A stretch of 64,000 bases of DNA from Alphaproteobacteria bacterium SS10 (GTDB taxonomy: Bacteria; Pseudomonadota; Alphaproteobacteria; TMED2), in NCBI GenBank assembly GCA_019192455.1, contig JAHCML010000003.1, forward strand, positions 477,294-541,293, given 5' to 3'. Every line of letters begins with the position of its first letter. The first letter of the stretch is position 1. This document shows, piece by piece, positions 28,999 through 38,658 of this stretch. The position numbers and the translations under genes are program-made. The notes beneath the pieces are model-generated. The model was not told the origin of the DNA. It worked only from the letters and a program-made list of their open reading frames with translations, and did not search any database.

Positions 28999-29022
28999 AA
29001 AACAAAGCTGAAATTCTGTTTT
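28999..29022. promoter_or_regulatory. Inverted repeat in the divergent LysR/hydrolase promoter region
   Basis: AAAACA (28999-29004) and TGTTTT (29017-29022) are separated by 12 bases, in the 225-base AT-rich region between the divergent hydrolase and LysR genes. LysR proteins usually bind such spaced dyads near their own promoter and a divergent target. Candidate only. Confidence 0.35.
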
Positions 29023-29149
29023 AGATGTTGGTGTTCGGGATCTCGTTACGCGGCGTCAAATGGGTGCACACCTATTCTTCGACAAATGAGGAGTTCTAAC
29101 TTCTGAGGTAAGTTCAGCTTAACTGTCCCTCCAGCTACACTTTTGCCTT

Positions 29150-30100
29150 ATGCCGTTTCGTCGCCTGCCACCCCTGTCATCTCTTCGCGCTTTTGAAGCG
29201 GCCGCCCGGTTGGGGTCGTTCAAAGAGGCCGCTGCCGAGCTATCGGTGACCCCGGCAGCGATTAGTCAGCAGATCAAAACGCTGGAGGAGGATCTGCAGG
29301 TAAATCTATTCAATCGCGGTGCCCGCGCCGTGTCCTTAACCCCAGATGGTGCAAAGCTTAGCCAGGGGTTGAGTCAGGCATTCTTTCAGATGCGGGACAC
29401 GGTTGAGCAGTTGCTGCAGAGCCAGTCCCCAGAACTTGCCATCGCAACATCCCCGGCCATTGCCTCAAAATGGTTGAGCCGTCGCATTCATAAGTTCAGT
29501 GAGCAGTACCCCGAGCTAACACCGCAAATCATGGCCCATTATGATGTGGTGCCGTTGGGGGATGGCGGACCTAGTGTGGCGGTGCGCTGTGGCCGAGAGC
29601 CGGGTGAAGAACTCTATTTCCGAAAACTGTGCTCAGAGCTTGTGCTGCCCTTGGCCAGCCCAGGGCTAGTGCAGCAATTAGATCTGGAGAAGCCCGCCGA
29701 CATCATGCGGGCACCGCTGATCCATGACCTCAGCCACTCCCATGTGGTGGCAACAATGCCGACCTGGGATGATTGGTTTGCAGAGGTGGGGTTGGACCCT
29801 CGAAATGCTGGGCATGGCACCCGGTTTGTCGGTGCCGCCGATCTTGCCCTAAATGCTGCAATCTCCGGCGCAGGGGTTTTGTTGGGTCGCTTGGGCTTAG
29901 CGATTGATGACATCCGGGCGGGGCTACTGGTCTGTCCGTTTGGGCCGGTCCTGGAAACCGGCAGTGACTATTACGTCGTTTGCCCGCGCGAATTTGCCGA
30001 CCGGGAATGCCTGCAAACCTTCATGAATTGGCTGGAAGGCGAGAGTGCTGAAAACCTCCGCATCCGTGATGAGTTCTTGGCTGGCATTGTCGCCAGTTAG
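29150..30100 (+). CDS. LysR-family regulator (GcvA-like)
   Basis: A 316-residue regulator. Residues 6-65 form the winged helix (SLRAFEAAARLGSFKEAAAE, then VTPAAISQQIKTLEE), of the GcvA subgroup; the rest is the two-lobed effector domain. It is divergent from the isochorismatase-amidohydrolase-MFS row and the obvious candidate to control it. The start ATG fits the usual N-terminal length. Confidence 0.88.
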   Translation: MPFRRLPPLSSLRAFEAAARLGSFKEAAAELSVTPAAISQQIKTLEEDLQVNLFNRGARAVSLTPDGAKLSQGLSQAFFQMRDTVEQLLQSQSPELAIATSPAIASKWLSRRIHKFSEQYPELTPQIMAHYDVVPLGDGGPSVAVRCGREPGEELYFRKLCSELVLPLASPGLVQQLDLEKPADIMRAPLIHDLSHSHVVATMPTWDDWFAEVGLDPRNAGHGTRFVGAADLALNAAISGAGVLLGRLGLAIDDIRAGLLVCPFGPVLETGSDYYVVCPREFADRECLQTFMNWLEGESAENLRIRDEFLAGIVAS

Positions 30101-30119
30101 GCTGCCTTTAAAGGCAGCC
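30100..30119 (+). terminator. Perfect palindrome at the LysR stop codon
   Basis: GGCTGCCTTT joined directly to AAAGGCAGCC, beginning with the last base of the LysR stop codon. It can form a stem of up to eight pairs with a small loop. No T-run follows, so Rho-dependent termination or mRNA end protection is possible. Confidence 0.45.
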
Positions 30120-30518
30120 CTGCCCACTAGGGACGGGTCGTTTGTGACGTACAAGAATTCGATGAGAACCGTTTTCAAGTAGTCTGGTAGAAAATACATA
30201 GTGCAGTGCAATAAATTCTATAAGCAAGAATTGAAAAATTACCAAATTTTGCTATTTGGCAAATAAATGCTGCATTGCAGCGACCTTTCTTCTGTAAAAT
30301 ATTTGTGTATTTGGTAGTCGTTTTGGCTGTGTTAATGCCAATCTATAAAAATATTTCACTCTAATTAATTCAATAAAATTAGATGCTTATAGGTTTCTTT
30401 GCACGTTTTTCCCAGTTTTTTCATACGCAGGCAAATGATCTAATCGCCGGTCAGTACTAGTAATTAAAAGGAGTAACTAAACTAATTCTGCGGCCGCCAA
30501 GACCGCAGGGAGGATCAC
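30120..30518 (+). promoter_or_regulatory. AT-rich promoter and leader of the rhodopsin operon
   Basis: About 400 bases with no gene, strongly AT-rich from about 30180 to 30480. Candidate promoter elements: TTGAAA at 30231 with TATTTG at 30253 (16-base spacer), and TTGGCT at 30323 with TATAAA at 30344 (15-base spacer). A palindrome GCTGCA-T-TGCAGC is at 30269-30281. Near the gene, AAAAGGAG at 30466-30473 is an SD-like sequence with no start codon after it, and CTGCGG/CCGCAG (30488-30493/30503-30508) forms a hairpin whose right arm abuts the true SD AGGGAGGA region (30507-30513). Confidence 0.5.
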
Positions 30519-31268
30519 ATGGAATCAATTTCGGTCGGTCAATACGACCTTATCTACAACGCTTTCTCATTTACCTTTGCCACAATGGCGGCCGCGACCT
30601 TGTTCTTTTGGTTTGGCCGAAGCCAGGTTGCCCCGGCCTATAAGACGGCCATGACCATTACCGGTCTGGTGACCTTTATTGCGGCGTATCACTACCTTCG
30701 TATTTTCCAAAGCTGGGAAGCAGCTTTCGAGGTCAATAACGGCACCATTGAAGCGACGGGTTATGCGTTCAACGCGGCCTATCGGTATGTCGACTGGTTG
30801 CTGACCGTTCCGCTTCTGCTGATTGAGCTTATCCTCGTGATGAACCTCTCCCGCTCAGAGACGTTCTCAAAGGCAACCAAGCTTGGTGCAGCTGCAGCTC
30901 TCATGATTATCCTTGGTTATCCAGGTGAGGTTGCGGCCTCCGCTGGTGATCGCTGGCTCTGGGGTGGTCTGTCCATGATCCCATTCCTGTACATCGTGTT
31001 CTCACTGTTCACGGGTCTGCGGGATTCAATCGGTAGCCAGCCAGAAGATGTGCGCGGGCTTGTGAACTCCGCCCGTTGGATTTTGGTTCTGTCTTGGAGC
31101 TTCTATCCGGTTGTCTTCTTCGCCGGTGCAATCGGCCTTGATGGCGCGACCGCAACCACGGTTGTGGAAGTCGGCTACACCATTGCTGACATCGTTTCCA
31201 AGGCTGGCTTTGGTGTCCTGATCTACATGATTGCGGTTCGTAAGTCCGCGCATGATGGTGGCCACTAA
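30519..31268 (+). CDS. Microbial rhodopsin, light-driven proton pump (xanthorhodopsin/proteorhodopsin type)
   Basis: A 249-residue seven-helix inner-membrane protein. Lys228 (ADIVSKAGFG) binds retinal. Helix C reads RYVDWLLTVPLLLIE: Asp92 counterion, Thr96 and Glu103 proton donor, the D-T-E set of outward proton pumps. Position 100, equal to proteorhodopsin 105, is Leu, which predicts green absorption. His58 matches the His that partners the counterion. In helix E, WGGLSMIPFLY has Gly149/Gly150 about where xanthorhodopsin has the Gly that opens a carotenoid-binding window. First gene of the cassette encoding retinal synthesis. Confidence 0.95.
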   Translation: MESISVGQYDLIYNAFSFTFATMAAATLFFWFGRSQVAPAYKTAMTITGLVTFIAAYHYLRIFQSWEAAFEVNNGTIEATGYAFNAAYRYVDWLLTVPLLLIELILVMNLSRSETFSKATKLGAAAALMIILGYPGEVAASAGDRWLWGGLSMIPFLYIVFSLFTGLRDSIGSQPEDVRGLVNSARWILVLSWSFYPVVFFAGAIGLDGATATTVVEVGYTIADIVSKAGFGVLIYMIAVRKSAHDGGH

Positions 31269-31326
31269 GTAGCTCCGGCTGCCGCTGAGTAAGCTTGGAT
31301 CTCGCTTGTTAAAGTGAGTTTGGTTG

Positions 31327-31353
31327 CGGCGGCGTTGATGATCAGCGCCGCCG
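31327..31353 (+). other. GC-rich hairpin between rhodopsin and crtE
   Basis: CGGCGGCGTTG (31327-31337) and CAGCGCCGCCG (31343-31353) form an 11-bp stem with one G-T wobble and a 5-nt loop, 58 bases after the rhodopsin stop. No T-run follows. It could protect the rhodopsin message or reduce read-through into the crt genes. Confidence 0.6.
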
Positions 31354-31393
31354 TAGCTCGCTTAAATCCTACGGGTATCCGCCGGTGAAATTT

Positions 31394-32311
31394 ATGCAAT
31401 CAACATTATCAAATCGGGAGTTGGCCTCTTCGCACCCGGCGATGCTGCAGCAAATGCTGCGCGAGGTTGAAGCACTGATGTTGGATCTGGCAACCACTGC
31501 CTCCGCTGGATCCACCACAACCGCGGAAGCGGTCCGCGAACACTTTGCCGCCGGTGGCAAACGTATACGCGCCCTAATGGCCCTAGATGCCGGCCAGAAA
31601 CTTCAGATTGATGAGCAAAGCGCAGTCGCCGTCGCGGCTTGCTGTGAGCTCTTACACAACGCGTCGCTCGTCCATGATGATATTCAGGATCAGGACTTAG
31701 AGCGCCGAAATCGTCCATCACTTTGGGCCACCCATGGCGCCGAGCATGCCTTGTGTGCTGGTGATCTTATGCTCTCGGCTGCTTATGCGGCGCTTGCCCA
31801 TGTTGATGTGCAGGGTGGCCTCGGTCAGTTGCTACAACGCACCTATCAGGCGGTTGCCAGAACCATCAATGGTCAGACCGCCGACATTGAGCAGCGCGGC
31901 CAAAAGCTCGATGACTTCACCCTTTACGAGACGATCGCCTCAGAGAAGTCTGGCCCGCTGCTTGGCCTACCGATCGAGTTGAGCTTGGTGATTGCGGGTC
32001 AGCTGCAATCGGTTGAGGTCTTGAACCAAGCGGTTAGGTCTATCGCCATCGCCTATCAGCTGGTCGATGATCTCGGTGACATTGCCGAGGATGCGGAACA
32101 GGGCGCCATGAATGGCGTTTGGGTTCTGGCGGAAGGCCATGAGAACAACATTGGCATCGCAATCCAAGAAGCCGCGACCACGACGCGACAGCACCTAGAT
32201 TTCGCCAGACGCCAAGCCGCGATGTTGCATGGCGATTGCGGTGCAGTACTGGCCAGCCTTGCTGACCGGTTAGAGGCAAAGCTTAAGGATCTTCTCGCCG
32301 ATGCCCCGTGA
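31394..32311 (+). CDS. crtE: Geranylgeranyl diphosphate synthase
   Basis: About 305 residues of the trans-prenyltransferase family. The first Asp-rich motif is DDIQDQD after LLHNASLVH, the second DDLGDIAED; GGKRIRAL is the conserved diphosphate-binding segment. It makes GGPP from shorter prenyl diphosphates, the precursor of phytoene. ATG at 31394 is preferred; a GTG at 31385 is in frame. The end overlaps crtI by 11 bases, so translation is probably coupled. Confidence 0.92.
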   Translation: MQSTLSNRELASSHPAMLQQMLREVEALMLDLATTASAGSTTTAEAVREHFAAGGKRIRALMALDAGQKLQIDEQSAVAVAACCELLHNASLVHDDIQDQDLERRNRPSLWATHGAEHALCAGDLMLSAAYAALAHVDVQGGLGQLLQRTYQAVARTINGQTADIEQRGQKLDDFTLYETIASEKSGPLLGLPIELSLVIAGQLQSVEVLNQAVRSIAIAYQLVDDLGDIAEDAEQGAMNGVWVLAEGHENNIGIAIQEAATTTRQHLDFARRQAAMLHGDCGAVLASLADRLEAKLKDLLADAP

Positions 32312-33839
32312 TCCGGAAATCATTGGGGAACCACCCCAATCCTCCATGCGTGGCGCGAAGAATGCCATAGTCATCGGTGGCGGTTTTGGCGGCATTGCCG
32401 CCGCTTTGCGTTTACGGGCCAAGGGCTATGAGGTCGATATCTTTGACCGTTGCCCACGGCTGGGTGGCCGCGCACAGGTGTTTGAGCGTGATGGTTTTCA
32501 CCATGATGCCGGGCCCACGGTCGTTACCGCCCCCTTCCTGTTTGAGGAGCTATTTGCCCTCTATGACAAGCAGCTGAAGGACTATGTGACGCTGGTTGAG
32601 CCAGAGCAATGGTACCGCTTTTTCTTTCACGAGGATGGCACCCAGTTCGATTATGGCCCGACACAGGAAGCGACCGAAGCTGAGATCGCCCGTATCAACC
32701 CCGCTGATGTGGCGGGGTATCGCCGCTTTAACGAGCATGCGCGCCGCATCTATGACCTCGCTTTCACCAAGCTATCCGATGCACCGTTTCATGATCCCAA
32801 ACTGATGGTGAAGTACCTGCCGTCGCTGCTCCGTTTGCGCAGCTACGAGACGGTTTGGCAGATGGTTTGCCGGTTTATGAAGGATGACCGCATCCGCCGG
32901 GCATTCTCAATTCAGCCACTTCTGCTGGGCGGGAACCCGTATCAGAAAACCAGCATCTATGGTCTGATCAATCACCTTGAGCGGGAGCATGGGGTTTGGT
33001 TTCCCATGGGCGGCACGGGGGCGCTGGTTGATGGCCTGACTAAGCTGATGGGTGAGGAGGGGATCAGCATCCATACCAGCACCACGGTCGATAAGATCGT
33101 GATTGAGAATGGTCGCGCGGCTGGAATCCGCCTTGAGGACGGGCAAATCCATCGTGCTGATTTGATCATCTCCAACACGGATCCGGTTCACCTCTATCGT
33201 CACATGTTGCCCGCCGATGCAGTTAATGCGACGGCCAAGCTGCGCTCGAAACACGCAAGGCTGTCGATGGGCCTTTACGTCCTATTCTTCGGCGCAAAAC
33301 ATCAATGGCCAGATGTGGCACACCACACGGTTTGGTTTGGCAAACGCCATCGCGGTCTACTGGACGATATTTTCAACCGTAAGCGTTTGGCCGATGATTT
33401 CTCTCTCTACCTGCATCGGCCGACTGCGACGGACCCAAGCTTTGCCCCCGATGGTTGTGACAGCTTCTACGTGCTCTGCCCGGTGCCAAATCAGCAGGGC
33501 CGAATTGATTGGTCGGTTGAGGAGCCAAAGCTGCGGCAGCGCATTGTGGATGCGCTGGATGGCAGCATCCTACCCGGGCTTAAAGGGTCCATCTGCTCGG
33601 AGTTTGCGATGACCCCAGACAGTTTCGCACAGGATTATCTGAGCGTTGACGGCGCTGGCTTCTCCATCGCACCCCAGTTCACCCAGTCAGCCTGGTTCCG
33701 GTTTCACAATCGGGCCGAGGCGATACCTGGGCTCTACCTGGTTGGTGCTGGCGCCCATCCCGGTGCGGGGCTACCGGGCGTGGTGTCCTCAGCGAAGGTG
33801 GTGGATCAATTGATCCCGGCAGCGACTGAGGCCTTGTGA
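32301..33839 (+). CDS. crtI: Phytoene desaturase
   Basis: A 512-residue FAD enzyme. The N-terminal dinucleotide fold is AIVIGGGFGGIAAALRLRAKG and the family end is YLVGAGAHPGAGLPGVVSSA (shown within family limits). It turns phytoene into lycopene at the membrane. AAGGA lies about 11 bases before the ATG. It overlaps crtE at the start and touches crtB at the end (TGATG). Confidence 0.95.
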   Translation: MPRDPEIIGEPPQSSMRGAKNAIVIGGGFGGIAAALRLRAKGYEVDIFDRCPRLGGRAQVFERDGFHHDAGPTVVTAPFLFEELFALYDKQLKDYVTLVEPEQWYRFFFHEDGTQFDYGPTQEATEAEIARINPADVAGYRRFNEHARRIYDLAFTKLSDAPFHDPKLMVKYLPSLLRLRSYETVWQMVCRFMKDDRIRRAFSIQPLLLGGNPYQKTSIYGLINHLEREHGVWFPMGGTGALVDGLTKLMGEEGISIHTSTTVDKIVIENGRAAGIRLEDGQIHRADLIISNTDPVHLYRHMLPADAVNATAKLRSKHARLSMGLYVLFFGAKHQWPDVAHHTVWFGKRHRGLLDDIFNRKRLADDFSLYLHRPTATDPSFAPDGCDSFYVLCPVPNQQGRIDWSVEEPKLRQRIVDALDGSILPGLKGSICSEFAMTPDSFAQDYLSVDGAGFSIAPQFTQSAWFRFHNRAEAIPGLYLVGAGAHPGAGLPGVVSSAKVVDQLIPAATEAL

Positions 33840-34741
33840 TGGAACAGAGGGCGCTTCAGCAATCGGCCGATGAGGCGCTGGCACGCCACGGCAAAAGCTT
33901 TGCCTGGGCCGCTCGGTTCTTACCGTCAAGCCAGGCCGAACAGGCGGCGCGCCTCTATGCCGTTTGCCGCACCATTGATGATATCGCCGATGATCAGCCG
34001 GCCAATCTGGCGAGGGTTGAGCTTGCTTGTCTTCGCGCTGCGCTGGCTGGTGAGGGGCATCACCCATTGGCCGCGCGAATTGTTGAACTGCAAGGCTCGG
34101 TCGGCCTGACCATGTCAGCGCTTCATCATCTGATCGATGGCGTCGAGCAGGATTTGACCCGGGTGAGGCTAAAGGATCAGGATGCGTTGGTCCGTTATGC
34201 CTACCGCGTCGCCGGCACGGTTGGTCTGATGATGTGCGATGTGCTCGACATTGATCACCCGGTCGCACGGCGTCATGCCATTGACCTTGGCATTGCGATG
34301 CAGCTGACCAATATCGGCCGCGATGTTTATGAGGATGCCGGGATGGACCGGCGCTATCTGCCAGCACGCTGGGTTCGACTGGAACCCGATGACCTGCTTG
34401 CCCCATCATCGGAACAGCAAACGCAGATTGAACAGGCCCTGAAACGCCTGCTGACGCTGGCCGAGCGGTACTATCAATCTGGCCAAGCTGGTCTCGACTA
34501 TCTACCGGGACGCACCCGCCAGGGTATTGCAATTGCGGCGGCGGTCTATCGCGAGATTGGTCAAACAATAACCCGTCGGGGTTACCGATATGATCGCAAG
34601 CGGGTCGTCGTGCCGAAGTGGCGGAAAGCACTGGTATCGGCCAAAACCGTTATCACCCTCTCTAGCGATAAGGGATGGCCAGCCCCCCATGATGCAAACC
34701 TTCAGGCGGCGCTGACCGATATTGCCCATGCCAGCGGTTGA
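33839..34741 (+). CDS. crtB: Phytoene synthase
   Basis: A 300-residue squalene/phytoene synthase family enzyme. CRTIDDIADD and NIGRDVYEDAGMDRRYLP are the two Asp-rich substrate-Mg sites. It joins two GGPP into phytoene. The ATG overlaps the crtI TGA by one base; a GTG directly before it (33836) would also be in frame. Ends inside the start of crtY. Confidence 0.94.
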   Translation: MEQRALQQSADEALARHGKSFAWAARFLPSSQAEQAARLYAVCRTIDDIADDQPANLARVELACLRAALAGEGHHPLAARIVELQGSVGLTMSALHHLIDGVEQDLTRVRLKDQDALVRYAYRVAGTVGLMMCDVLDIDHPVARRHAIDLGIAMQLTNIGRDVYEDAGMDRRYLPARWVRLEPDDLLAPSSEQQTQIEQALKRLLTLAERYYQSGQAGLDYLPGRTRQGIAIAAAVYREIGQTITRRGYRYDRKRVVVPKWRKALVSAKTVITLSSDKGWPAPHDANLQAALTDIAHASG

Positions 34742-35876
34742 TACCCATGCGGTTATCCTGGGCGGTGGCCTGTCCGGCCTGGCCCTTGGTAACGCCCTAT
34801 GGGCCCGCAATATCCGTGCCATCATCGTTGAACCGCGGGAGCAGTATGCAGCTGACCGTACTTGGTCGTTTTGGCATCAAGGGCGGCCACCATTCGATGA
34901 TGCCATTCAAGGGCAATGGCAATGTTGGTCAGTTGGTGTTGGTGAGCGGCAGATCATACGGCATGGCGATCGCTACCGCTACACCACCCTAGACTCCGCC
35001 AGGGTTTATCAAAACCTGACCACGCCCTTGCTCGACTTGCCTGGTGTGGTTGACCTCAAGCTGGGCCACACAGCCCATGGCATGCCCAGCTTTGACCCTG
35101 GGTCACAGACTTGGGTGACTGAGACGAGTGACGGCCAAATCCGCTCACAGGTCGTTTTCGATAGCCGCCCCGGCCGTTCAAATGCGCTGCCGTATGGCCA
35201 GCATTTCCTCGGCTGTGAGGTTCGCACTGATCGCCGATGCTTTGACCATGTAACAGTGCAGCTCATGCAGTTTCGTAAAACAGCTGAACCAGGCGCCATC
35301 GATTTCCTCTACCTCCTGCCATTTGCACCGGATCACGCACTGATCGAGGTAACGAGGTTTAGCGCCAGCCAACCGGATCAGGCCGAGATGGAACGTTGGC
35401 TGATTGATGAGTTGGCATTGATCACGGATGGCAGCATGGTCACCGAGTATCGGCGGGAACAGGGCTTCATACCAATGGTGGCTGGATACCGAACCGATGG
35501 CGCACGGGATCCCGGCTACTGCAAGATTGGCCTCTCAGGTGGTGGTGCGCGGGCCAGCACCGGCTACGCCTTCCTCCGTATTCTTGATCAGGCGCAACAA
35601 CTGGCAACACAGGTCGCAGCTGGACAGCAGGCGCCGAGGGCCAAGCTAGATGGCTTCTTCACCAGCTGGATGGACCGTGTGTTCCTTGGGGTCCTGGAAG
35701 CCATGCCAGATCGCGCACCCGCCATGTTTAATGAGTTGTTTGAGCATGTGCCCCAAGACCGGCTTGAGCGGTTCTTAAGTGGGCCGCAGAGGATGACCGA
35801 TCGCTATGCGGTGATGCGGGCGCTGCCAATGCAACCATTCCTGCAGCAAGCGCTGGGCCTAAGGTTGCAATCATGA
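34728..35876 (+). CDS. crtY: Lycopene beta-cyclase
   Basis: About 382 residues. The N-terminal FAD/NAD fold is AVILGGGLSGLALGNAL; DRTWSFWHQ and FDSRPGR are CrtY signatures. It forms both beta-ionone rings to give beta-carotene. The ATG at 34728 is preferred to the TTG at 34722. Overlaps crtB by 14 bases and blh by four (ATGA). Confidence 0.93.
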   Translation: MPAVDTHAVILGGGLSGLALGNALWARNIRAIIVEPREQYAADRTWSFWHQGRPPFDDAIQGQWQCWSVGVGERQIIRHGDRYRYTTLDSARVYQNLTTPLLDLPGVVDLKLGHTAHGMPSFDPGSQTWVTETSDGQIRSQVVFDSRPGRSNALPYGQHFLGCEVRTDRRCFDHVTVQLMQFRKTAEPGAIDFLYLLPFAPDHALIEVTRFSASQPDQAEMERWLIDELALITDGSMVTEYRREQGFIPMVAGYRTDGARDPGYCKIGLSGGGARASTGYAFLRILDQAQQLATQVAAGQQAPRAKLDGFFTSWMDRVFLGVLEAMPDRAPAMFNELFEHVPQDRLERFLSGPQRMTDRYAVMRALPMQPFLQQALGLRLQS

Positions 35877-36742
35877 GTTCGGAGAGCCAGCCAAGGGTTG
35901 GGCCCCTTATCCTTATCGCAAGCTGCGCGGCTGCGGTGATGGCGAGCGTCTTGCTGGGCAACGACCTAACCTGGCAGCTGTGGTTCATCGTGCCGATGAT
36001 TGCCGTGCTGGGGCTGCCCCATGGATGCCTGGACCTTGAGATTGCCAAGGTTTTACGCCCGTTGCCATCAGTGCAATCTATAGTCGCCTTTCTGGGCCTT
36101 TACCTGCTGATTGCTGGCGCTGTGCTGCTTGCCTGGATGGCGGCGCCCGGACCGGCGCTGGTTGCGTTTCTGATCTATTCAGCGGTGCATTTTGGCGGTG
36201 ACTGGCGTCAGCATTTGAAGCGCGGCCTGCATCTGCTCCCCGGCTTTGCCATCATCTCGGTTGCTGCACTTCTGCAGATCGAGCAGACGATCCAGATTCT
36301 TGCCTTCTTGGCCCCGCAAGATTGGGCCGTTAGCATCGCACTGGCCATGAAGTGGACGGCATGTGCGGTGGTGCCGGCCAGTATTGGCATCATGCTCGCA
36401 ACTCGTGTTGAGCGGGTCGTTCTGGTTGAGTTCACCTGCCTTATGGCGCTGGGCTTATTGGCGCCGCCATTGGTGTTCTTCACCGTCTATTTCTGTATCG
36501 CGCATTCGCCCAAGCATATTGGCGACACACTTTCAGCGCTTAAAATGCCGTTCACCAACGGTATCCGTCGGGCCTTGCCCATTTGGCTGGTCACGATGAT
36601 TGGGGCTGGGGGCGCGGTCGTGCTGTTGCCGGCCGCCTTATCCGTGGCCACCGTTCAGGTGATCTTTATCGGCCTCGCCGCGCTAACGGTGCCGCATATG
36701 CTGTTGGTTGAGAGCCTATGGCGCCGGGATCTAGCCAGCTGA
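35873..36742 (+). CDS. blh: Beta-carotene 15,15'-dioxygenase, Brp/Blh family
   Basis: A 289-residue polytopic membrane protein that splits beta-carotene into two retinal molecules. The iron-binding His are visible in GLPHGCLDLE, SAVHFGGD, CIAHSPKH and TVPHMLL. It starts within the crtY stop (ATGA), showing tight coupling. It completes the retinal pathway for the rhodopsin at the head of the cassette. Confidence 0.94.
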   Translation: MSSESQPRVGPLILIASCAAAVMASVLLGNDLTWQLWFIVPMIAVLGLPHGCLDLEIAKVLRPLPSVQSIVAFLGLYLLIAGAVLLAWMAAPGPALVAFLIYSAVHFGGDWRQHLKRGLHLLPGFAIISVAALLQIEQTIQILAFLAPQDWAVSIALAMKWTACAVVPASIGIMLATRVERVVLVEFTCLMALGLLAPPLVFFTVYFCIAHSPKHIGDTLSALKMPFTNGIRRALPIWLVTMIGAGGAVVLLPAALSVATVQVIFIGLAALTVPHMLLVESLWRRDLAS

Positions 36743-36800
36743 CTTTCACTGTCGGGCGCAGTGGTCAAAGCTGAGCTGCTCGGTGCTTTAAGGCGAATGG

Positions 36801-36873
36801 TGCCGGCTGAGGGACTTGAACCCCCGACCTTCGGTTTACAAAACCACTGCTCTACCAACTGAGCTAAGCCGGC
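36801..36873 (-). tRNA. tRNA-Thr (TGT)
   Basis: On the minus strand it starts GCCGGCTTAGCTCAGTTGG; the acceptor stem GCCGGCT pairs with AGCCGGC, and the T arm is GGGGGTTCAAGTCCCTC. The anticodon loop TTTTGTAAA gives anticodon TGT, reading ACA. CCA is not encoded. Its 3' end faces the end of blh 58 bases away. Confidence 0.96.
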
Positions 36874-37141
36874 CATGGCCACATATGGGCTGCGCGGGAA
36901 ACTAACGCTACGCGCGCTTTGTGGCAACCGCTCTCAGCTGACTCATTTCTTAATTCAGTTCCGGTCAATTCAGGGCCCGTTAACCGAAATCGGGCATCAC
37001 TTGTTTACCAAGATGAATGGCACGTCAGGTTGGCGATGGGGCGTTCATCACTTGTAAACCTTTGTCACCGGGTTGGTGTTGAACGCCGCTTGGTGATGCA
37101 GAACGCATTTTGACACGGATTGGTTCGGGGAAGCGAGAAAC
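36874..37141. other. Gap between tRNA-Thr and a hypothetical gene
   Basis: 268 bases. It should contain the tRNA-Thr promoter on its left side. Short frames here have no ribosome site or protein-like composition. Nothing else seen. Confidence 0.3.
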
Positions 37142-37747
37142 GTGGGTGTTAGCATTCCTTTAGCGCAAGCGGCGATGTCCGGGCAGATGGCCAGTGGGCG
37201 GCCATCTGGGAATGGTTTGTCGGTGGCGGCGGAGGTTCGGCCTCTAACCGCACCGGCAACCTTTCTGCCCAATATGGGATTGATCGCGACAGAGCGGGCC
37301 GAGATTTGGTCCCAGCTTTCCGCCCGGGACAAGGTTAGTGCCTTGATGGCCGGACGGGCCGCGGATGAGCAGTTGCAGCTCGGTGCCCCGGTCTATGGCC
37401 GCACGCCCAGTAACCTAACTGATCGCACAGGCTTTGCCGTGACGGCCTATTTGGGCCTGTTCGATGCGCCGCCAGCGGGCGCTAGCCGCGCACCGCAAGC
37501 TGACTTTCCAGAAGTGCCAAAGCTAACTCAGCCAGGCTTTGTCGACGTTGATCTGGCACCACCAGTTTCGACGGGCGATGACGCAATCGTCGCCTTTGAG
37601 ATGACGCCGGATGGCGTGCTGGCGACGCCGATGCCCGCATCACAGGGTGCAACCGGTGGCGGTACATCAGGCTTTATGGAGATGAGTGGGCCGTACAGCG
37701 CCGTTGATCGCCGGTTCCCCGGCGATATCGTCGACTACTTTGCTTAG
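37142..37747 (+). CDS. Hypothetical protein
   Basis: 201 residues from a GTG at 37142; an ATG at 37175 is an alternative start. The first 35 residues are Ala/Ser/Gly-rich, then a helical part containing ERAEIWSQLSARDKVSALMAG, then Pro/Gly-rich sequence likely to be unstructured, ending SAVDRRFPGDIVDYFA. No family recognised. Its last four bases overlap the end of the convergent rlmB gene. Confidence 0.5.
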   Translation: MGVSIPLAQAAMSGQMASGRPSGNGLSVAAEVRPLTAPATFLPNMGLIATERAEIWSQLSARDKVSALMAGRAADEQLQLGAPVYGRTPSNLTDRTGFAVTAYLGLFDAPPAGASRAPQADFPEVPKLTQPGFVDVDLAPPVSTGDDAIVAFEMTPDGVLATPMPASQGATGGGTSGFMEMSGPYSAVDRRFPGDIVDYFA

Positions 37748-38658
37748 GCGCCCGGCTCATCAAGCCGTCGCCATTCATACAGGCTGGCCGCCACGGCGTT
37801 GGAGACATTAAGGCTGGCAATCGGTGGTTGGGTCGGCAGGCGGACCAATTTCTGGCATCGCTCAGAAACCAGCCGGCGAAGGCCACTACCCTCAGCGCCC
37901 ATCACGAAGGCGATGCGTGGCTGCATCTCAACCTTAGCTAGGGTTGTCTCACCACGCTCATCCAGACCGACGCTTAGGAACTCATGCTCATCGAGCCAGG
38001 TGAGGGTGCGCGCGATATTGGTCACCTTCACATAGGGCACATGTTCCATCCCACCGGATGCGGTTTTGACCATGATTGCCGTCTCATCCGGCGCATGCCG
38101 ATCCTGGCCAATAACGGCAACGGCACCAAAGGCCGCGGCACTGCGGATAATCGCGCCAATGTTATGTGGGTCCGTCACCTGGTCGAGGATGACCAGTGCC
38201 GCCCCCGCACCATCTGGCAGCTTGTCGATCAGTGATGGTAGGTCTGGTTGATCAAGGGGAGCCACATCGGCTGCGATACCGTTATGGCCAGGGGCGTCGG
38301 TGATCTTGGCGTTGAAATCCGGCGGGCTCATCAGGGTTGGGGTTGGGCGACCCATCTTAGCGGCCACGGCCGCATCTAGATGCGGCTGCAGCAGTTCCAA
38401 GCCCGACTGGGTGGTGTTGAGGCTATAGATCCGACGCTTGGGGTTCAGGAGGGCCTCAGCGATCGCATGCAGGCCGTGCAACCAATAACCCTTGGCTTGC
38501 AGCATCTGTCCACCGCCGCCGCTGCCACCACGGCCGCGTCGTTGATCCTGGCCACCACCTTTGCCGCCGCGCTGATGCTGCGGCTTGCCACCACCCTTAC
38601 CATCCGGACGATGGGGGCGCCGCCGACGGCGGTTCTTGGATTTGGATTGGTCGTTCAT
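37744..38658 (-). CDS. rlmB: 23S rRNA (guanosine-2'-O)-methyltransferase, TrmH/SPOUT family
   Basis: 304 residues. The SPOUT motifs are VILDQVTDPHNIGAIIRSA (motif 1), FVMGAEGSGLR (motif 2) and LNVSNAVAASLYEW (motif 3), and the N-terminal substrate-binding domain (GLHAIAEALLNPKR) is present. It uses SAM to methylate a ribose in rRNA, by family G2251 of 23S. It has an added N-terminal tail of about 50 residues rich in Arg, Gly and Lys. It lies between tRNA-Thr and tRNA-Tyr. Confidence 0.88.
   Translation of the reverse strand: MNDQSKSKNRRRRRPHRPDGKGGGKPQHQRGGKGGGQDQRRGRGGSGGGGQMLQAKGYWLHGLHAIAEALLNPKRRIYSLNTTQSGLELLQPHLDAAVAAKMGRPTPTLMSPPDFNAKITDAPGHNGIAADVAPLDQPDLPSLIDKLPDGAGAALVILDQVTDPHNIGAIIRSAAAFGAVAVIGQDRHAPDETAIMVKTASGGMEHVPYVKVTNIARTLTWLDEHEFLSVGLDERGETTLAKVEMQPRIAFVMGAEGSGLRRLVSERCQKLVRLPTQPPIASLNVSNAVAASLYEWRRLDEPGA

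Follow-up and report, generated by a model that had tools for sequence, protein, structure and literature searches.

The window, meaning the whole stretch of 64,000 nucleotides that was analysed, carries at positions 30519-36742 of its forward strand a gene for a seven-helix rhodopsin followed by crtE, crtI, crtB, crtY and blh. These genes and two shorter features are located as follows:

30519..31268, + strand, rhodopsin gene (249 aa), a predicted proton pump of the subgroup II xanthorhodopsin type; Pfam Bac_rhodopsin; nearest PDB entry 3ddl by sequence and by fold
30960..30992, + strand, helix E stretch WGGLSMIPFLY, in which Gly149 aligns with Gly156 and Gly150 with Phe157 of Salinibacter xanthorhodopsin (XR)
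31322..31358, + strand, perfect 17-bp stem-loop with a 3-nt loop between rhodopsin and crtE, a putative attenuator or 3' stabiliser
31385..32311, + strand, crtE, geranylgeranyl diphosphate synthase type; Pfam PF00348; DDIQD and DDLGD motifs
32301..33839, + strand, crtI, phytoene desaturase; TIGR02734, 544 bits
33836..34741, + strand, crtB, phytoene synthase; PF00494
34728..35876, + strand, crtY, lycopene beta-cyclase; PF05834 (a TTG at 34722 is a possible alternative start)
35873..36742, + strand, blh, beta-carotene 15,15'-dioxygenase; TIGR03753, above cut-off

Open reading frames, protein families and motifs agree with a preliminary description of this DNA, which had reported the six genes in one direction and read them as a proton pump with a full retinal pathway, a reading that families, motifs and pump residues support well. 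Pfam matches were obtained for the rhodopsin (Bac_rhodopsin, E 3e-43), CrtE (polyprenyl_synt, 3e-39), CrtB (SQS_PSY, 2e-60) and CrtY (Lycopene_cycl, 4e-45), and the curated NCBIfam cut-offs were passed by CrtI (544 bits for a family cut-off of 238) and by Blh (167 bits for a Brp/Blh cut-off of 95). CrtE, CrtB and CrtY score above the gathering thresholds of their broad Pfam families, yet below the NCBIfam cut-offs. Catalytic motifs are intact in CrtE (as listed), CrtB (DDIAD and DVYED) and Blh (HGCLD and HSPKH), and the dinucleotide-binding glycines are present in CrtI and CrtY, so that the retinal pathway from prenyl diphosphates is complete, with crtE, crtB, crtI, crtY and blh all intact. 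Three further SQS_PSY (squalene/phytoene-synthase) genes occur elsewhere in the genome; two of them adjoin a weak CrtI-family match at C3:1074889, in what looks like an hpnCDE-like arrangement, and the crtB of the cassette is therefore the likely phytoene synthase.

Consecutive enzyme genes overlap by 11 (crtE/crtI), 4 (crtI/crtB), 14 (crtB/crtY) and 4 bases (crtY/blh); the range given previously, 1 to 14 bases, was right at its upper end and is corrected to 4 at its lower end. Rhodopsin and crtE are separated by a gap of 116 bases. The earlier wording "in one operon" stands as regards gene set and order, and has to be qualified by the strong stem-loop between rhodopsin and the enzyme genes. 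Neither the region upstream of rhodopsin nor the rhodopsin-crtE gap gave a match to a sigma-70-like promoter, and an Rfam scan of positions 29000-38000 returned a tRNA and nothing else. A foreign origin of the cassette was rejected on composition, the enzyme genes (GC 0.57-0.59) being similar to the flanks; a dip to 0.47 corresponds to the intergenic region upstream of rhodopsin. That the six-gene arrangement arose by chance is excluded.

In an alignment with XR, Gloeobacter rhodopsin (GR) and Kin4B8, the residues His58, Asp92, Thr96, Leu100, Glu103, Asp224 and Lys228 are identical in all. They comprise the Schiff-base lysine (Lys228), the acceptor (Asp92), Thr96 and the carboxylic donor (Glu103) of a DTE-type pump, as well as the green-tuning Leu100, and the alignment bears out the roles first assigned to them. 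A sequence search of the PDB gave Salinibacter xanthorhodopsin 3ddl as the nearest solved structure (E 1e-74). An AlphaFold model of the rhodopsin (pLDDT 92.6) also had 3ddl as its closest fold (Z 34.5, with an rmsd of 1.5 across 247 residues); psXR, thermophilic rhodopsin, Kin4B8 and GR came next. In a phylogeny of 55 sequences, where related MAG sequences stood in for the Octadecabacter type sequences, the window rhodopsin clusters with 49 relatives, and a branch with 100/99 support sets this group off from XR, GR, psXR, Kin4B8 and a planctomycete sequence; within the group its placement has no support. By its position in the tree and by its retinal-gene cluster, the window rhodopsin matches, at the sequence level, the subgroup II xanthorhodopsins of Vollmers et al. 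2013 (PMC3646047), for which conserved clusters of opsin and retinal-synthesis genes have been reported and whose Octadecabacter representatives showed proton pumping when expressed in E. coli (PMC3646047). Light-driven outward proton pumping is thus predicted from published work on relatives, and this prediction is well supported.

The cassette belongs to the XR-crtEIBY-blh type, which is known from other bacteria. The full order rhodopsin-crtE-crtI-crtB-crtY-blh is seen in 25 of the 50 relatives, with crtE plus crtI following the opsin in 31; among those departing from the full order, several loci are truncated where a contig ends, and others have blh or crtY directly after the opsin. A rhodopsin is present in 35 of the 385 sampled genomes of the same class. 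In surveys of the genus and of the family, the source genome was the only member in the collection searched, and the lineage is poorly sampled. Gene order and enzymes are the same in the XR-crtEIBY-brp operon of glacier bacteria (PMC7701988) and in Rhodobacter calidifons M37P (PMC9231093), whose rhodopsin is 77% identical to that of the window. Bacteriochlorophyll photosystems are additionally present in M37P and in some glacier strains, whereas the source genome gave no match to Photo_RC (reaction centre), which speaks against a dual phototrophy. The subgroup II clusters of Octadecabacter arcticus and O. antarcticus (PMC3646047) are comparable in having an XR-family pump, the equivalent of Gly156, changed helix F slot residues and clustered retinal genes; two Octadecabacter-related sequences (one an Octadecabacter MAG), about 70% identical to the window rhodopsin, differ from it by a Tyr instead of Phe at position 200.

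The least expected feature of the locus is the stem-loop. The 135 bases 3' of rhodopsin have a folding z of -4.95 relative to shuffled sequence, due to the 17-bp stem, and a stem-loop at most 100 bases from the rhodopsin stop (p <= 0.05 against dinucleotide shuffles) was detected at 43 of 48 loci. Using a uniform threshold (pairs plus GC pairs of at least 18), stem-loops were retained after rhodopsin at 39 of 50 loci, and at 0-9% of loci after the other genes (crtE 2/33, crtI 1/32, crtB 0/28, crtY 3/34, blh 1/37), figures that give an approximate effect size, as the scoring rule and threshold were set after the first results, the loci are related, and the shuffle control is not specific to AT-rich genomes. 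A T-rich tail accompanies only 17 of these 39 stem-loops, and that of the window is without one. In two sub-clades the stem has changed without loss of pairing, in some cases by substitutions in both arms. Among 29 further rhodopsin loci of the same class, mostly proteorhodopsin-like and around 30% identical, 21 pass the threshold, usually with a T tract, and several of these 21 have crtE next; the stem-loop thus recurs in structure and not in sequence across xanthorhodopsin and proteorhodopsin loci. The possibility of a dispersed repeat was discarded, since the hairpin occurs only once in the genome.

This element is most simply read as a terminator-like attenuator or a 3' stabiliser, and its position suggests that it sets opsin above enzyme expression. 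A comparable element is the pufBA-pufLM intercistronic hairpin of purple bacteria. More generally, structured RNA after the rhodopsin stop, with divergent sequence and conserved structure in both xanthorhodopsin and proteorhodopsin operons, might act between cistrons as an attenuator or stabiliser and so determine the ratio of opsin to retinal enzymes, a generalisation to which we give slightly less than even chances. No mention of a stem-loop after rhodopsin was found in the open-access literature.

The preliminary description had also placed Gly149/150 near the site where xanthorhodopsin admits an antenna carotenoid. In the helix E alignment Gly149 corresponds to the fenestration glycine of XR, of Kin4B8 (Gly153) and of GR, with no bulky residue there. 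Among 50 relatives this position is Gly in 24 and Trp in 26, and retention of the glycine may be under selection. Kin4B8 (8i2z) and XR resemble the window rhodopsin in fold, pump residues and fenestration glycine (47-51% identity), and differ from it in the residues around the carotenoid. In Kin4B8 the carotenoid ring is held by Tyr204, Ser208 and Tyr209, of which the first is described as shared by every known carotenoid-binding rhodopsin, and the single substitution S208A leaves 2% of the wild-type zeaxanthin binding (PMC12308411). The aligned residues of the window rhodopsin are Phe200, Ala204 and Ile205: the anchoring Tyr (XR 207, Kin4B8 204) is missing, as are polar residues at Kin4B8 positions 208 and 209, which are associated with 3-hydroxy xanthophylls. 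In helix E, Thr157 of Kin4B8 (Thr160 of XR) is replaced by Met153, and overall T160, L194, L197, A198, G201 and I205 of XR become M, W, V, L, S and V, positions that differ in all subgroup II proteins (PMC3646047). The combination of Gly149 and Phe200 is shared with seven relatives. Six of the seven form a supported clade of alphaproteobacterial rhodopsins in which, as in the window rhodopsin, the fenestration glycine is kept and Phe replaces the conserved Tyr.

As to pigment supply, the lack of a hydroxylase or ketolase gene in the cassette, pointed out earlier, was confirmed and extended to the whole genome, which contains no recognisable CrtZ (protein query), no FA_desaturase-type CrtW or CrtR, and no second CrtI-family enzyme above cut-off, hence no CrtO. 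The CrtZ query works, as it gave strong matches in the genomes of four relatives. An FA_hydroxylase match was rejected as CrtZ (289 aa; its sole NCBIfam match, below cut-off, is the ornithine lipid hydroxylase OlsE); this OlsE-like match was found with equal score on two contigs (C3:301457-301864 and C14:2605-3012). The single P450 gene of the genome (C7:23223-24314) has the putative P450 7wzl as best PDB match and plant LUT5 as second, with only 175 residues covered, and its assignment as a CYP175-type carotenoid hydroxylase is unsupported. The P450 reading frame directly follows that of a LuxI-like synthase and lies near a LuxR-like one, and is possibly a quorum-sensing-linked P450.

With no known route to a hydroxylated or keto carotenoid in the genome, an antenna pigment would have to be external, and a xanthophyll acquired from algae or other bacteria could be bound at the Gly149 fenestration. 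We regard this as unlikely. It has in its favour the aligned glycine; the fenestrated, blh-linked XR of Sphingomonas sp. AAP5, which a citation in PMC12308411 reports as a nostoxanthin binder; and GR, which binds ketocarotenoids despite differing from XR at L194 and A198 and having non-polar residues at 208 and 209. In a survey of the genomes of 31 relatives, many of them possibly incomplete MAGs, for CrtZ as the sole enzyme, strong matches were found in 4 (1 of 18 with Gly149, 3 of 13 with Trp), so that presence of the glycine does not track that of CrtZ; acquisition from outside could nevertheless be common, given the 17 fenestrated relatives without a strong match. These points are set against the replaced ring anchors, one of which alone nearly abolishes zeaxanthin binding in Kin4B8 (about 98% lost), against the observation that beta-carotene is not bound by Kin4B8, and against the Octadecabacter subgroup II xanthorhodopsins, which have the fenestration glycine and yet did not bind salinixanthin (PMC3646047). 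The antenna suggestion was therefore sound as to the glycine and the absent hydroxylase and ketolase genes, and is weakened in that the glycine alone is insufficient and the ring-anchoring residues are missing. Non-binding of carotenoid is a sequence-based prediction.

A far less probable alternative is that the carotenoid genes serve mainly to make beta-carotene as a membrane antioxidant, with the rhodopsin in a minor or a sensory role as light detector. For the XR of Sphingomonas AAP5, which is barely expressed, a sensor role has indeed been proposed from an adjacent histidine kinase (PMC7762795). At the present locus the rhodopsin has no neighbouring kinase or transducer gene in the window, blh overlaps crtY by its 4 bases, and the pump residues are all present, including the donor.

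On the genes, families, residues and stem-loop seen here, and with pumping and enzyme activities taken from published relatives, we consider with good confidence that the locus is a self-contained XR-crtEIBY-blh phototrophy cassette, whose green-absorbing pump most likely works with retinal alone, its fenestration unoccupied; we infer the absence of an antenna from a fenestration glycine kept without the known ring anchors. In this phototrophy cassette CrtE would supply the prenyl diphosphate (GGPP), two of which would be joined by CrtB to give phytoene; CrtI would desaturate phytoene to lycopene, CrtY would cyclise lycopene to beta-carotene, and Blh would cleave the latter to retinal. Retinal would then be bound at Lys228 of an outward proton pump with Asp92 as acceptor and Glu103 as donor. 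The stem-loop 3' of the rhodopsin stop would probably allow much more opsin than enzyme to be made from one promoter.

The cassette is thus real, functional-looking and ordinary, with an antenna unlikely. It adds one more lineage to the bacteria with a self-sufficient rhodopsin cassette, and provides a useful negative example, in that a fenestration glycine alone should not be taken for an antenna site. If the stem-loop is confirmed, it would account for the production of opsin and retinal enzymes in very different amounts from a shared operon.
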